NCBI GenBank assembly: GCA_000525025.1
Contig: JCKJ01000001.1
Coordinates: forward strand, 930,001 to 994,000
Length of the DNA: 64,000 nt
From: Methylophilaceae bacterium 11
GTDB taxonomy: Bacteria; Pseudomonadota; Gammaproteobacteria; Burkholderiales; Methylophilaceae
Reading direction: 5' to 3'
The position numbers and the translations under genes were made by a program. This document shows, in pieces, positions 21,493 to 45,624 of this stretch. A model generated the notes under the pieces. The model saw nothing but the letters and a program-made list of their open reading frames with translations. It did no database searches and was not told the DNA's origin. How positions within the stretch are numbered: the stretch's first letter is position 1; each line of letters opens with the position of its first letter.

Positions 21493-22344
21493 ATGAAGCA
21501 ATACCTCGAGTTGTGCCAAAGAATTATTGACGAAGGTGTTTGGGTTGACAATAAGCGGACGGGAAAAAGATGCTTAACCGTCATCAATGCTGACCTTACC
21601 TATGATGTGGAAAATGGTGTTTTTCCACTCGTCACCACCCGTAAGAGTTTCTACAAATCGGCCATTGCCGAAATGCTTGGCTATTTGCGTGGGTATGACA
21701 ATGCTGCAGATTTTAGAGCAGTAGGTACGACCACTTGGGACGCCAACGCCAACGATAATCAAGAGTGGCTGGCAAATCCCTATCGAAAAGGGCAGGACGA
21801 TTGCGGCTTTATTTACGGTAAAGTAGCCAGAAATTTCCCTAAGCCTGATGGCGGTAGTATCGATCTACTAGCCAACATCGTAAAAGATCTCACGCAAGGC
21901 ATCGATAACAGAGGCGAGATTCTCACGTTTTACCACCCTGGCGTGTTTCATATGGGCTGTTTAAGGCCTTGTATGTACAGCCATCATTTCTCTTTACTGG
22001 GCGATACACTTTACCTGAACAGTACGCAGAGAAGCTGCGATGTGCCGCTCGGTTTAAATTTTAATATGGTGCAAGTGTATTTCTTGCTGGCGCTAATAGC
22101 ACAGATTACGGGTAAGAAAGCCGGTAAAGCCTTCCATAAAATCGTCAACGCCCATATTTATGAAGATCAGCTTGAGCTGATGCGCGATGTGCAATTAAAA
22201 AGAGCGCCATTCCCATCCCCTACATTCATCATCAACCCAGATATTAAAACACTGGAAGACGTGGAGACTTGGGTGACGGTGGATGATTTTAATGTGGTGG
22301 ACTACGAGTTCCATCCAGCCATCAAATACCCATTCTCTGTATAA
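21493..22344 (+). CDS. thyA: Thymidylate synthase
   Basis: Methylates dUMP to dTMP with methylene-tetrahydrofolate. 283 residues. The active-site Cys is in [12 protein letters not shown] and the dUMP site in [16 protein letters not shown], followed by NAHIYEDQ. The sequence is somewhat atypical around the catalytic Cys (PCMYSHHF where many ThyA have PCHxxFQF), but all key elements are present. thyA and folA, often adjacent, are here separated by the oppositely oriented qse block. Confidence 0.95.
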
Positions 22345-22402
22345 ACTTGCCTGATTAAAGCAAATAGCTCACTAACAAGTAAGCCACACTCAAATTTTGG
22401 GC

Positions 22403-22440
22403 AAAAAAAAGTTGCCCAGTTTGTTTTTATTGGGCAACTT
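22403..22440 (-). terminator. Intrinsic terminator of the small RNA
   Basis: Leftward reading: perfect 10-bp stem (22440-22431 with 22418-22409), 12-nt loop, then a run of T to 22403. On the plus strand no T-run follows, so it acts leftward. It would also end read-through from qseF. Confidence 0.85.
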
Positions 22441-22473
22441 CGGAATAGGTGACTACAAGGGAGGAAGTCACTG
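22403..22473 (-). ncRNA. Predicted sigma-54-dependent small RNA with anti-SD loop
   Basis: About 71 nt, transcribed leftward. The 5' end is placed 12 nt after the -12 element of the sigma-54 promoter. Stem-loop 1 has a perfect 6-bp stem (22471-22466 with 22454-22449). Its 11-nt loop reads UCCUCCCUUGU in the RNA, which contains a CCUCC anti-Shine-Dalgarno stretch. A short linker leads to stem-loop 2 (10-bp stem, 12-nt loop) and a U-run ending near 22403. No ORF is present in the transcript. It lies 3' of qseF, whose product is the likely activator. Alternatives: the RNA could also be cut from the 3' end of qseF mRNA. From memory, an Rfam family called Betaproteobacteria toxic small RNA has a similar anti-SD loop and may be the same thing. 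Confidence 0.75.
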
Positions 22474-22484
22474 ATTTACTATTA

Positions 22485-22499
22485 GCGAATAGTGTGCCA
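22485..22499 (-). promoter_or_regulatory. Sigma-54 (-24/-12) promoter of the small RNA
   Basis: Leftward sequence TGGCACACTATTCGC: GG at -25/-24 (22498-22497), exactly 10 bp, then GC at -13/-12 (22486-22485). Consensus is TGGCAC-N5-TTGC; one mismatch (TCGC for TTGC). Sites for an enhancer-binding activator lie 60-165 bp upstream. Confidence 0.78.
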
Positions 22500-22561
22500 A
22501 CTTTTTTATCTTTATAAATCAATAGGTTATAAAATTCACCTGTGACGCACTTGGACTATTT

Positions 22562-22579
22562 TGTCGCTCATAAGTGACA
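22562..22579. promoter_or_regulatory. GlrR/QseF-type enhancer site 1, TGTC-N10-GACA
   Basis: Exact match to TGTC-N10-GACA, the recognition sequence known for enterobacterial GlrR (QseF). Near-perfect dyad (TGTCGCT...AGTGACA). Centred about 98 bp upstream of the predicted RNA start. Confidence 0.75.
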
Positions 22580-22626
22580 AGTTTTGTAATGTAATCTGTA
22601 AGTGATTGAATTAAAAGTTAAAATTT

Positions 22627-22644
22627 TGTCGCTAAATAGCGACA
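22627..22644. promoter_or_regulatory. GlrR/QseF-type enhancer site 2, perfect 18-bp palindrome
   Basis: TGTCGCTAAATAGCGACA, exact TGTC-N10-GACA and fully palindromic. Centred 65 bp from site 1, about 163 bp upstream of the predicted RNA start, inside the gap just after the qseF stop. Confidence 0.78.
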
Positions 22645-22645
22645 C

Positions 22646-22663
22646 TGTTTACAAGTAGTGACA
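22646..22663. promoter_or_regulatory. Degenerate third enhancer site, TGTT-N10-GACA
   Basis: One mismatch from TGTC-N10-GACA, 1 bp from site 2, so the two would lie about two helical turns apart. A further half-site GACA is at 22673-22676. Weaker support than sites 1 and 2. Confidence 0.45.
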
Positions 22664-22677
22664 CGAATTGGCGACAT

Positions 22678-24030
22678 TTATAACAGGGGCTGTTTAAATA
22701 GTTGTGGCTCAATCGCATGACGCTCTAATAAGCGATAAAATTCTGTGCGATTACGTTGTGCCAGTTTTGCTGCTTGGGTGACATTGCCGTGTGTGCTTTT
22801 CAAAAGATTCACCAAGTACTGGTGCTCAAACTGCTGGCGCGCAACCTCAAACGGTAGCACAGCTTCATGGTCGGCTTGTAGTGCTTTTTTCACCAAGCTG
22901 ACAGGAATCAACGGCGTGGTTGCCAGCACTACCGTGTGCTCAATCACATTTTGTAATTGCCGTATATTGCCAGGCCAAGCACCTTGGCTTAGATAGCTGA
23001 GTGCATCTGGGGCGTAGCCCTGTATTTGCTTTTGATGGCGCTCACTGAATATTTTAAGAAAGTGGTGTGCCAGCAATGGAATATCTTCACGACGTTCTGC
23101 CATGGCGGGCAGTACCAAATTCACTACATTGATGCGGTAGAACAAATCCTCGCGGAATTGTTGCGCTTTCATCTCGGCCAAGAGGTCGCGATGGGTTGCC
23201 GAAATCAGTCTGACATTGATAGGAATGGTTTGTGTGCTCCCCACCGGGCGGATGACACGCTCTTGCAATGCGCGTAATACTTTGACTTGCAGAGAAAGTG
23301 GCATATCACCAATCTCATCCAAAAAGAGTGTGCCGCCATCTGCCGCCTGAAATAATCCGACATGATTGTTGACCGCGCCAGTAAACGCCCCTTTGGCATG
23401 GCCAAATAACTCTGATTCCAGCAAGTTTTCTGGGATAGCCCCGCAATTGATAGCAACAAAGGGTTGGTGTTGGCGTGGGCTGGCCTGGTGTAAGGCATGC
23501 GCTAGTAGTTCTTTACCGGTACCACTTTCGCCCTGAATGAGTACACTCACATCGCTGCTGGCGATTAGCTTTGCTTGGCCAAGCAGATTTTCCATGCGTG
23601 GACTTTTGGTCAGGATCATTTTGCGCCAAATGTCCTGCTCCTCTCGTGCTTGTGTGCTTAATCCACTCAACTGTAATGCATTGGCAACTTGCTGCAACAG
23701 CACCTGACTTTCAAAAGGCTTGGATAGAAAACTGAATGCACCTTGGTGTGTGGCTGCAACTGCATCAGGTATCGTGCCATGGGCCGTGAGTATGATGACC
23801 GGTAAGGTAGGGTGCTGGCGATGTAGTTGTAGCATCAATTCCATGCCATCCAGCTCCGGCATCAATAAGTCGGTAATCACAAGGTCAGGGCGCTGCATGG
23901 CAACGCTGGCCAGTGCTGCTGCGCCGTTGTGCGCAATCACCGTTTGATAACCGGCCGATTGCAATCGTAAATCAATCAATCTCAAAATATCGTGATCATC
24001 ATCTACGATTAAGATGGTGGCCGCACTCAT
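22678..24030 (-). CDS. qseF: QseF/GlrR-like sigma-54 activating response regulator
   Basis: NtrC-family regulator of 450 residues. Receiver domain with phospho-acceptor Asp54 (VITDLLMP). AAA+ domain with Walker A GESGTGKE (167-174) and the sigma-54 contact motif GAFTGA (214-219), so it should activate sigma-54 promoters. C-terminal Fis-type helix-turn-helix (GNVTQAAKLAQRNRTEFYRLL). Order kinase, lipoprotein, regulator is that of qseE-qseG-qseF (glrK-qseG-glrR). Two exact GlrR-type sites and a sigma-54 promoter follow its stop codon, pointing to the small RNA at 22403-22473 as a target. Confidence 0.9.
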   Translation of the reverse strand: MSAATILIVDDDHDILRLIDLRLQSAGYQTVIAHNGAAALASVAMQRPDLVITDLLMPELDGMELMLQLHRQHPTLPVIILTAHGTIPDAVAATHQGAFSFLSKPFESQVLLQQVANALQLSGLSTQAREEQDIWRKMILTKSPRMENLLGQAKLIASSDVSVLIQGESGTGKELLAHALHQASPRQHQPFVAINCGAIPENLLESELFGHAKGAFTGAVNNHVGLFQAADGGTLFLDEIGDMPLSLQVKVLRALQERVIRPVGSTQTIPINVRLISATHRDLLAEMKAQQFREDLFYRINVVNLVLPAMAERREDIPLLAHHFLKIFSERHQKQIQGYAPDALSYLSQGAWPGNIRQLQNVIEHTVVLATTPLIPVSLVKKALQADHEAVLPFEVARQQFEHQYLVNLLKSTHGNVTQAAKLAQRNRTEFYRLLERHAIEPQLFKQPLL

Positions 24031-24057: not shown

Positions 24058-24651
24058 TTAACGTACATTAAGCGATTTTTCGATATTCTTCAGGTGAATG
24101 AGTTTTTGTTCAGCAGCATCGTACTTTTTCTGCAATGTATCGTACTTTTGCGTGAGAGTATCTAGCGATCTAGCCTCATCTTTGATTTTTTGCTGCTGCT
24201 TGATATTTTCTACATTAAATAGAAATAAATGGTTGATATACGCTTTTTCGGTTGCGTTCAGTGCAGGTTCCTCACGCAGTTGAGACAGCAACGTATGCGC
24301 TTTTGTTGCATCTTTAAGGTAGCTGGAGGGTAGTGCGTAGATGCATGCAAGCTTGATGCGCTGCACCACATCCTGTTTGTTTTGGCTCAGGATCTGTTGT
24401 GTTTCTAACCATTGTTTCTTTTGCCCGTCTTGATCTGCTTTGCTGTAGCTCTCACAAGCTAGTATCGGCTGTGGTAAATCTGCAGGTTTGGCGGGTAAAA
24501 GTGTGACGCCGCTATTCGTGGGCTCAGGCAGTTGGGCATTCGAATCACTGGCCAGTGGCTCTTGGTCAGCAGTAGGCTTTTGCATTTGTGATGTGGCACA
24601 TCCGGAAATTAGGATGATGCCCGCAAGCAAGGTTAAGTAAGTGTACTTCAT
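24058..24651 (-). CDS. qseG: QseG-like outer-membrane lipoprotein
   Basis: 197 residues with a clear lipobox (LISGC, Cys18) after a short signal peptide. Central helical region and a C-terminal coiled coil (QKIKDEARSLDTLTQKYDTL onward). In E. coli QseG is an outer-membrane lipoprotein that contacts the sensor QseE and stimulates it. The position between kinase and regulator and the domain layout fit. Sequence alone is only weakly diagnostic; the name rests mainly on context. It overlaps the qseE stop by 4 bp and precedes qseF by 27 bp. Confidence 0.75.
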   Translation of the reverse strand: MKYTYLTLLAGIILISGCATSQMQKPTADQEPLASDSNAQLPEPTNSGVTLLPAKPADLPQPILACESYSKADQDGQKKQWLETQQILSQNKQDVVQRIKLACIYALPSSYLKDATKAHTLLSQLREEPALNATEKAYINHLFLFNVENIKQQQKIKDEARSLDTLTQKYDTLQKKYDAAEQKLIHLKNIEKSLNVR

Positions 24652-26081
24652 AGCATGTCCGTTCTAGGCAATCTAATCACGACGTGTGCGCCTTTGTCTT
24701 CTGGTTTTAACTCAATGCTGCCTTGGTGCAGCTCAACTAAGTTTTTGACGATGGTCAATCCCAATCCGCTGCTGTTGACTAACCCTTGATGCAACGTTTT
24801 CCCTTGATAGAACGGGTCAAATAACTTGTTGATATCCTCTTTGCTCAACCCTGGGCCGCTATCTTGCACCTCAATTAACTGCCATGGTTTGTCTTGTCTG
24901 GTCGAGATCACAATCTGACCAGCCTGAGGTGTGAATTTTACGGCATTTGAGATCAAATTATCTAACATTACTATTAATGTTTCTGCGTCAGCATAGATTG
25001 TTCCCAACCAAAAACGTGTATCAATATGCAACTGCTTATTGCGGATAGTCAACGCATGCGAAGCCAGTACAGATGAGACAATCTCGTTGATGTTCAGTGC
25101 TTGCACTTGCATCACGTGCTTGTCCGATTCCATTTTGGTAAAGGTGAGTAAATTCTCAATCATTTTTTGTAGGCGCAAACTGTTGTCTTTGAGAATGTGT
25201 GCAATCTCGTGTTGTTGCGCAGACAGCGTACCGCCAATACCATCGGTCAGTAATTCGGAAGCCTCACGAATTGCGGTGAGCGGGGTTTTAAGTTCGTGAG
25301 AGATATGCTGCAAGAAACGCTGTTTTTGTTCTTTTAAATGCAGTAATTCTTGGCGCAGCCAATCTAGACGTTGCCCCAGTAGCCTCAAGTCACCAGGCCC
25401 ATCAATGCTAATGGCATTTTGGTATTCGCCTTTACCCAAATCCTTAATCACAGTATCCATGCGTTGAATGGGCCGACCCAACATAAAGGCAATGGCACCC
25501 GCAACCAATAAGGCAAACGGTACCAGAATCAAACTTTGTAAAAAAAAGCGTTGCTGTGCTTTGCTGGCACTGGTTACTAGATGCGCCGATGCGTTATCGA
25601 TGGATTGGTTATTGCGCAGGATTAACTGATTGACTTGTTGTGTCAGCTGTTGAAAGTCATTCAGCACCGGCATTTGCTCTAAGTTGCTGATATTGGTATG
25701 CAAAATCACCAGATTTAATTTAGCCTCAGTCTTTTTTACTTCTAATAATTGATTACGCTGTTGTGCTTCCGGGCTTAATATAATGAGCTCCTGCAGCGCA
25801 GTTAAAAAAGCGCCACGCGTATTATGATAGTTCTCTAAAAACTCAAAATCATTTAATACAAGAAACTGTCTAGCGCTGCGTTCCATCAAGTGTAATTGCT
25901 CTTGTAGCATATGGCTTGCCCGCGTTGTCTTCACAGCTTTATCGATGGTATTTTGGCTGTTTTTAGAGAGCTGATTAAACGCAAGGTTGGCATTAATAAA
26001 TGCCATAATCAACGGCAGAATGGCAAAGGCAAAACCAATCAGCAAAAGCTTGAGAAATGAGTTTGGATACTGAATGCGCAT
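24648..26081 (-). CDS. qseE: QseE/GlrK-like sensor histidine kinase
   Basis: Membrane sensor of 477 residues. Membrane helix 1 (FLKLLLIGFAFAILPLIMAF), a helical periplasmic domain of about 140 residues, helix 2 (LILVPFALLVAGAIAFMLG), HAMP, HisKA with the phospho-His in HISHELKTPLTAI, and HATPase with NLISNAVKFTPQ, DSGPGLS and SSGLGLTIV. First gene of the leftward qseE-G-F operon, divergent from folA. In enterobacteria the orthologous pair controls the small RNAs GlmY/GlmZ; whether the signal is the same here cannot be told. Confidence 0.88.
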   Translation of the reverse strand: MRIQYPNSFLKLLLIGFAFAILPLIMAFINANLAFNQLSKNSQNTIDKAVKTTRASHMLQEQLHLMERSARQFLVLNDFEFLENYHNTRGAFLTALQELIILSPEAQQRNQLLEVKKTEAKLNLVILHTNISNLEQMPVLNDFQQLTQQVNQLILRNNQSIDNASAHLVTSASKAQQRFFLQSLILVPFALLVAGAIAFMLGRPIQRMDTVIKDLGKGEYQNAISIDGPGDLRLLGQRLDWLRQELLHLKEQKQRFLQHISHELKTPLTAIREASELLTDGIGGTLSAQQHEIAHILKDNSLRLQKMIENLLTFTKMESDKHVMQVQALNINEIVSSVLASHALTIRNKQLHIDTRFWLGTIYADAETLIVMLDNLISNAVKFTPQAGQIVISTRQDKPWQLIEVQDSGPGLSKEDINKLFDPFYQGKTLHQGLVNSSGLGLTIVKNLVELHQGSIELKPEDKGAHVVIRLPRTDML

Positions 26082-45256: not shown

Positions 45257-45624
45257 GGGGCTGACCAGGTTTCGACGTGGGTTGCAAAGCAGTGCAGGGC
45301 ATACCGAGGATTCAGGTTTCCTCGTAAATCCATCTGAACAAGTATAGTCGCAAACGACGAAACTTACGCTCTAGCCGCTTAATACCGGCTGGACGCTGCA
45401 CCATCTCTCCCGTGGGGTGGGTGGCCTTAAAACCATCGCAGCGTCATATACACGGGATACGTTTTACGTTGGGTTACTTAGCGTAAGATTAACCTTAAGG
45501 TAACTCGCTTAGTCAGTGCTTGTCTGTTGGTGGGGGCTAAGTTAAATTAAACAACAAGGCTAAGTATGTAGAACTGTCTGTGGAGGGCTTGCGGACGCGG
45601 GTTCGATTCCCGCCTGCTCCACCA
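45257..45624 (+). ncRNA. ssrA: Transfer-messenger RNA (tmRNA)
   Basis: Rescues stalled ribosomes with SmpB. 5' end GGGGCTGACCAGGTTTCGACG and 3' end with T-arm GGTTCGATTCCCGCC and CCA are standard. The tag reading frame starts at GCA 45350 and encodes ANDETYALAA before TAA (45380-45382), the usual betaproteobacterial tag. In the acceptor stem, pair 6 is U-U (GGGGCUG with CUGCUCC), unlike E. coli where it is U-A. The 3' end is a typical attachment site for mobile DNA, and an AT-rich cassette follows. Confidence 0.96.

Follow-up and report, generated by a model that had tools for sequence, protein, structure and literature searches.

A predicted sigma-54-dependent small RNA beside a glrR-like gene of Methylophilus and its probable descent from the 3′UTR of a protein operon

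The stretch of DNA analyzed here (the window, 64 kb of the genome of Methylophilaceae bacterium 11) contains an intergenic region of 333 bp between thyA on the plus strand (21493–22344) and a convergent glrR (qseF)-like gene on the minus strand (22678–24030). The product of the glrR-like gene has GlrR (NCBIfam NF011695) as its best family, with 618 bits under the cut-off of 763, and shows in Pfam the order receiver, sigma-54 AAA and Fis-type HTH, the last scoring 21.6 bits and being just below the cut-off of 22. Also on the minus strand lie genes for a lipoprotein-like protein (24058–24651), which has no match in Pfam or NCBIfam, and for a histidine kinase (24648–26081) with HisKA and HATPase_c domains, whose best NCBIfam row, CreC, is below the cut-off. 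The order kinase–lipoprotein–regulator resembles qseEGF, and the kinase (glrK or qseE position) and the lipoprotein (qseG position) are named by position. A QseF-like neighbor had been proposed in the original prediction, made from the sequence of the window, and the GAFTGA motif, the domain order and the qseEGF-like arrangement bear this out, with the reservation that the NF011695 score is below the cut-off. Both rpoN and hfq are found in the genome. The window also holds a tmRNA gene (Rfam RF00023) at 45257–45624.

In a blast search of 61 genomes the region was recovered from the window's own genome (G000) and from three others (G001, G006 and G016), with weak partial matches in three more; in a related-locus search 80 loci were kept and only L038 and L039 exceeded 50% identity. 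In the four Methylophilus genomes the RNA described below stands without a coding sequence. Enterobacterial GlrR (QseF) is reported to activate glmY from a sigma-54 promoter via TGTCN10GACA (PMC8745638), and GlrR/QseF sites are alternatively written TGTN12ACA (PMC6075780). Two exact copies of TGTC-N10-GACA are present in the intergenic region, a proximal one at 22562–22579 and a distal one at 22627–22644, 65 bp apart, and 83% and 94% of their columns, respectively, are invariant in the four genomes. They are the only exact copies in the window, and two exact sites occurred in none of 20,000 first-order Markov shuffles of the intergenic region (at least one site in 58 of 20,000). With one mismatch allowed the motif shows no excess across the whole window (15 found versus 19.9 expected), and the case for the sites therefore depends on the two exact copies and on their being conserved. 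A one-mismatch site had also been predicted and is indeed present (22646–22663, overlapped by a second copy at 22659–22676), but its region is only 18% invariant and the site is not conserved.

A candidate sigma-54 promoter, TTGGCACACTATTCGCT, lies at 22484–22500 on the minus strand, with all 17 columns invariant in the four genomes and with a position relative to the sites that matches the rest of the family. Since it ranks second among eight sites of the window scoring at least 18.5 in our promoter score, the promoter alone is not rare, and the case for it is its placement beside the sites together with its invariance. An exact site followed after 55–72 bp by TGGY-N9-GC is matched once in the whole genome; the reversed control pattern is also matched once, so that this count by itself says little. 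The pattern GACA-N55-72-TGGC-N9-GC was rejected as too loose (173 matches in the genome versus 59 for the reversed control), and a stricter site and promoter pattern, run over 300 genomes of the order, was set aside as a basis for counts, its reversed control being matched often where the G+C content is high. The promoter (22485–22499) and the two exact sites of the original prediction are thus confirmed in position, and both elements, whose absence from related genomes would have spoken against it, are conserved in the three other genomes.

Counted from the GC box the transcript is predicted to start at 22472/22473; conservation starts at A22472 and the U-run ends at 22403, which gives a predicted RNA of 70 nt on the minus strand (22403–22472). 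In the predicted fold, a 5′ hairpin (22449–22471) with a stem of 6 bp, GUGACU/AGUCAC, exposes an 11-nt loop, UCCUCCCUUGU, with the anti-Shine–Dalgarno core CCUCC, and is followed by an intrinsic terminator (22403–22440) with the stem AAGUUGCCCA/UGGGCAACUU, an A-rich loop and the U-run. The stretch 22403–22475 folds with −22 kcal/mol compared to a shuffled mean of −9.2 (z −5.1). The loop UCCUCCCUUGU is identical in the four genomes and in G019. A terminator of thyA, also recognizable as a stem–loop (22397–22428, plus strand), overlaps that of the RNA, making the element bidirectional, and the A-rich loop of the RNA is also the T-run of thyA's terminator. Since thyA uses the 3′ half of the RNA as its terminator too, the conservation of this half is not wholly evidence for a function of the RNA, and the same overlap accounts for the 12 bases just beyond the U-run that are 100% invariant in the four genomes.

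In the alignment of the four genomes 90% of the 72 columns of the RNA are invariant. The surrounding DNA is much less so: upstream of the sites the invariant fraction is 18%, in the spacer separating the two sites 30%, in the stretches that link site to promoter and promoter to start 31% and 36%, respectively, and farther downstream 14%. No reading frame is kept within the RNA across the four genomes. The ORF-free leftward unit with an intrinsic terminator and a transcript of about 71 nt that had been suggested is therefore recovered at the sequence level, one nucleotide shorter. In the window a frame of 14 codons begins with a GTG at the RNA's second predicted base, and one could suppose that the unit encodes a very short peptide; neither the length nor the stop of this frame is kept in the four genomes, however, and the predicted start leaves no space for a ribosome-binding site, so that we regard a peptide as extremely improbable. 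In Rfam no match at the gathering threshold falls on this locus, and GlmY and GlmZ are matched neither at that threshold anywhere in the window nor up to E 10 between 22345 and 22700, in agreement with the earlier statement that the RNA is unlike both. A match to Yfr10 in the same interval (24.8 bits with a gathering threshold of 43, E 0.13) was treated as chance.

From the four RNAs a covariance model, R1, was built. Scoring 150 first-look candidates per genome, R1 has matches at E ≤ 0.01 in 6 of 22 genomes of the genus, exactly those with a GlrR orthologue (E ≤ 1e-130), and none in the 16 genomes without one; a hit at 0.16 in G012 was taken as noise. The RNA module is thus apparently absent from most of the genus. 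The genus also contains two types of thyA: the window's type occurs in 5 other genomes (79–93% identical) and a second type, only 33–36% identical to it, in the remaining 16. This difference, seen among others in G002, G010, G015 and G019, adjoins the RNA locus: beside the RNA, thyA is 90–93% identical to the window's in the four genomes, 33% in G019 and 36% in G015, and thyA-like genes of about 30–34% identity adjoin the operon in several other genera also. As both terminators occupy the same DNA, the RNA might be thought to act on the convergent thyA through the 3′ overlap, as antisense or by terminator competition. The conserved loop is, however, outside the overlap, and the module stays put while the adjoining thyA is of two types; we consider such an action quite improbable.

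To place the module in a wider context the family Methylophilaceae was surveyed. There are 53 glrR matches in 50 of 150 genomes, and the downstream DNA was read at 50 loci; the matches outside these are second copies in G103 and G145 and the one in G101, in whose downstream DNA (L235) no hairpin was found. The glrR copies of G103 have identical scores and are about 143 kb apart (G103:C1:957721 and 1100753). At 42 of the 48 loci covered by the promoter survey (L021 and L023 were left out) glrR is followed by a sigma-54-like promoter that is accompanied by one or more sites, exact or with a single mismatch. The sites are mostly at about −79 to −83 and −144 to −149 from the promoter start, and pairs are 64–66 bp apart. 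At the contig end of L015 (1–175, G168) units resembling GGTCACGATxGxCCG repeat beside glrR, and no promoter was found.

Of these 42 promoters 38 precede a frame of 96–190 amino acids that by eye looks exported or membrane-like; the other four are those of the window and its three relatives. The promoter-linked proteins are EF-hand-like, with matches below the Pfam cut-offs, and a BON domain is frequent among them (in L217 with 2.8e-17). The EF-hand-like gene is in many genera followed by genes for a glycine-zipper-like protein and a membrane protein, or the membrane protein is present alone. The latter starts with K(T/A)HPMVL(V/I)AA and has a glycine zipper (PF05433) above the cut-off. A membrane protein with N-terminal HPMVL(V/I)AA or LLYPxxIIAA and a glycine zipper also recurs in GlrR operons of the order (L217 1150–1788, L264 616–1188 and others).

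The stretch after the last gene of these operons carries a hairpin with a C-rich, anti-Shine–Dalgarno-like loop. In several genera it is a separate hairpin before the terminator, with loops CUCCC, CUCCCC or ACCCC, and in others the C-rich loop is the loop of the terminator itself (UCCUCCCCGA, UCUCCCCGA, CCAACCCCGG). A scan for such loops, with a motif list chosen after the loops had been seen, is positive at 40 of the 50 family loci on the sense strand, at none of the 50 on the opposite strand and at 0–4 of 50 in ten shuffles, and of 78 unrelated loci (234 kb) 2 and 4 are positive on the two strands, respectively. It misses the hairpins of L011, L012, L013 and L134, which are recognized by eye or in looser scans. 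Of the six other negative loci, L015 lies at a contig end, at L016 and L136 a promoter with sites was not found, and L132 is a second, 58% copy in G122; the last two are L126 and L130. C-rich loops are lacking in all of 66 background terminators, taken from the unrelated loci and from elsewhere in the window, only 11 of the 66 loops being at least 7 nucleotides long.

The RNA of the window and this hairpin are connected by R1. In the genus search the model matches, in G019 (8e-8) and G015 (0.0096), the DNA that follows the EF-hand-like gene, and 19 bases, CTTCCTCCCTTGTAGTCAC, are common to the G019 stretch and the window RNA. Searched over the 50 family loci, four of them the model's own, R1 finds at E < 1e-3 seven of the 46 others (L034 from G019, L019 from G015, L017, L014, L020, L012 and L022), all in the 3′UTR region of the promoter-linked gene. 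From these matches in G019, G015 and other genera it follows at the sequence level that the window RNA is the 3′UTR module of a protein operon of the GlrR type that occurs throughout the family; that the mRNA reaches into the matched stretch we infer from the terminator. A covariance model of Methylophilaceae homologues, which had been named as a check, thus does find relatives of the RNA, and they are located after protein genes. This is also where the earlier picture of kinase, lipoprotein, activator and RNA as one self-contained module has to be amended: the genes do adjoin and are kept in the three other genomes, but the origin from a 3′UTR was missed.

The stem of the hairpin was examined in an alignment of 13 of 22 hairpins, 12 of them distinct (A3). 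In it 88% of the cells are paired and four of eight pairs have changed on both sides, in 7 cells. The covariation score of 0.280 was reached by none of 500 shuffles, a control that relatedness inflates; with partners slid by +1 the score is 0.264 versus 0.280, with only 38.6% of the cells paired, and the number of pair types was reached by 281 of 500 shuffles. Between genera the C-rich loop drifts (CCUCCC, CUCCCC, ACCCC). This variation around the C-run and the position of the loop within the terminator itself in many genera would be compatible with a cis element for termination, mRNA stability or protein binding in place of a base-pairing RNA. We think this unlikely, since in the lineage of the window and in several genera the hairpin is apart from the terminator and since it persists in the four genomes without any mRNA left to protect.

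How the four genomes may have come to have the RNA alone is indicated by a GlrR tree of all 30 loci (a first tree covered 20 of the 30; the midpoint root serves only to draw the tree). Here the RNA-only genomes group in a single clade (100/99) within genomes that have coding sequence plus hairpin; G019, which has both, is placed beside this clade (100/99), followed by G015 (89/86), both on long branches. The glrR of G019 consists of two adjacent pieces in different frames (L034 1498–2782, residues 24–80 and 81–449), by a frameshift or an assembly error. An orthologue of the EF-hand-like protein was not found elsewhere in the four genomes, an absence that is weaker for G001 and G006 because these are 88% complete. 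The best EF-hand matches in the four have E values of 9e-7 to 7e-4 and 32–35% identity over the EF-hand part only, and G019 and G015 hold comparable ones as second matches. This suggests that the four-genome lineage gave up the protein and retained the RNA. As the coding sequence is lost on one side and thyA is of another type on the other, both flanks of the 70-nt module have changed while the module stayed, and this is in our view the strongest argument, drawn from sequence comparison, for the RNA being the selected product, with the reservation that thyA, too, depends on the 3′ half for its terminator.

Outside the family, GlrR orthologues (E ≤ 1e-145) are present in 85 of 200 genomes of the order, 5 of them belonging to this family, and 40 regions, hand-picked for varied families, were taken from the other 80. 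Of the 40, 31 show a sigma-54-like promoter together with one or more sites, a single mismatch being allowed, a count made without a shuffled control. In sense, 9 of 40 regions have a C-loop hairpin that runs into T's, compared with 2 of 40 in antisense and 0–3 in shuffles; the scan finds no such hairpin in the 31 others. Seven of the nine are terminators downstream of the promoter (L263, L264, L276, L278, L281, L284 and L287), and three of these carry UUCCUCCCUU, the loop core of the window. On account of these terminator hairpins the element seems to be older than the family, but it is patchy and the excess over the controls is modest.

Our main reading, to which we assign a probability of roughly 70%, is that the locus encodes a sigma-54-dependent small RNA of about 70 nt which is activated by GlrR, is derived from a 3′UTR after loss of the coding sequence and probably acts in trans via its loop. 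By analogy with the enterobacterial system, the lipoprotein would modulate the kinase and the kinase phosphorylate the GlrR-like regulator, which at the two sites and together with sigma-54 would bring about transcription of the RNA. In the ancestor of the four genomes the coding sequence would have been deleted from a GlrR-activated mRNA for exported or membrane proteins, whereby promoter and RNA module became adjacent. The exposed loop UCCUCCCUUGU, whose core CCUCC is the complement of GGAGG, could then pair in trans with G-rich Shine–Dalgarno regions, mask ribosome-binding sites and block translation, perhaps with the help of Hfq, to which the A-rich terminator loop and the U-tail may presumably be suited.

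We therefore searched for targets of such a pairing. AGGGAGG-N3-12-ATG has 28 matches in the four genomes, few with long frames and none in more than one genome. With one mismatch CAAGGGAGGAAG finds the RNA gene itself in all four genomes and no other site that is shared, there being 3, 0, 0 and 2 other sites in G000, G001, G006 and G016, respectively. One of those in G000 precedes a frame of 121 amino acids (L351), which we take to be DoxX-like, and was discarded as a candidate target as it is not shared. When 1269 candidate starts of the window were scored for duplex formation, those of thyA, folA, glrK, the lipoprotein gene and glrR had −2.7 to −7.6, far from the best value of −14.8; the genes for DAHP synthase (4808) and fabB (15069) are in the top four, uncorrected for the number of starts scored and for the window only. 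That no target emerged would suit a relic, i.e., a fossil of promoter and terminator left over from the coding-sequence loss whose RNA, if made, has no function, and the terminator common to thyA would alone be enough to keep the 3′ half. We hold this to be improbable, as the sites, the promoter and the loop of the 5′ hairpin are near-invariant although the lipoproteins of the three other genomes are only 54–56% identical to the window's and the flanking DNA is 14–36% invariant.

With GlmY and GlmZ of Enterobacteriaceae the RNA, judged by its sequence, has the sigma-54 promoter, the GlrR-type sites and the adjoining kinase, lipoprotein and regulator genes in common. It differs in having 70 nt and no Rfam match to either, in its place downstream of glrR (glmY is located upstream of qseE), in coming from the 3′UTR of a protein operon and in having two conserved sites, whereas three are named for glmY. 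In its loop it resembles alpha-r14/NfeR1 of alpha-rhizobia, for which PMC10746234 describes a C-rich anti-Shine–Dalgarno motif unpaired in hairpins with variable stems, the NfeR1 seeds masking the ribosome-binding site of ntrB. There, three hairpins each carry CCUCCUCCC, whereas the window RNA has one C-loop hairpin with CCUCCC plus the terminator, and control and bacterial class are different. CJnc230 (FlmE) of Campylobacter jejuni is likewise RpoN-dependent, is made with the upstream flgE mRNA and has a putative anti-Shine–Dalgarno stretch (PMC11187230); in that case the coding sequence stays and RNase III frees the RNA, whereas in the window the coding sequence is absent, the sigma-54 promoter itself adjoins the 5′ end and the RNA would start at the promoter. 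Like 3′UTR-derived small RNAs in general, regulatory RNAs from an mRNA 3′ end with its terminator, the window RNA has homology to an mRNA 3′ end; its stand-alone state through coding-sequence loss has no counterpart in the accessible part of the review (PMC9438474). Among the matches listed in literature searches on GlrR, on small RNAs of Methylophilus and betaproteobacteria and on small-RNA origins, which comprise titles and starts of abstracts with most subscription papers outside, the RNA is undescribed.

Some GlrR operons of the order end in an RNA that is unrelated to GlmY but has the same promoter anatomy, which suggests that the control of small RNAs by GlrR is not confined to GlmY. Going further, one may tentatively propose, with the odds slightly against it, that what an old GlrR/sigma-54 operon of the order conserves as its output is the RNA rather than the proteins, the anti-Shine–Dalgarno arm of an envelope response residing in the 3′UTR, and that Methylophilus represents a natural deletion experiment in which the coding sequence was discarded and promoter and RNA were kept. 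Living genomes provide intermediate states for the conversion of a 3′UTR RNA into a stand-alone small-RNA gene, from coding sequence plus RNA in G019 and G015 to RNA alone in the four relatives, with the same kind of promoter.
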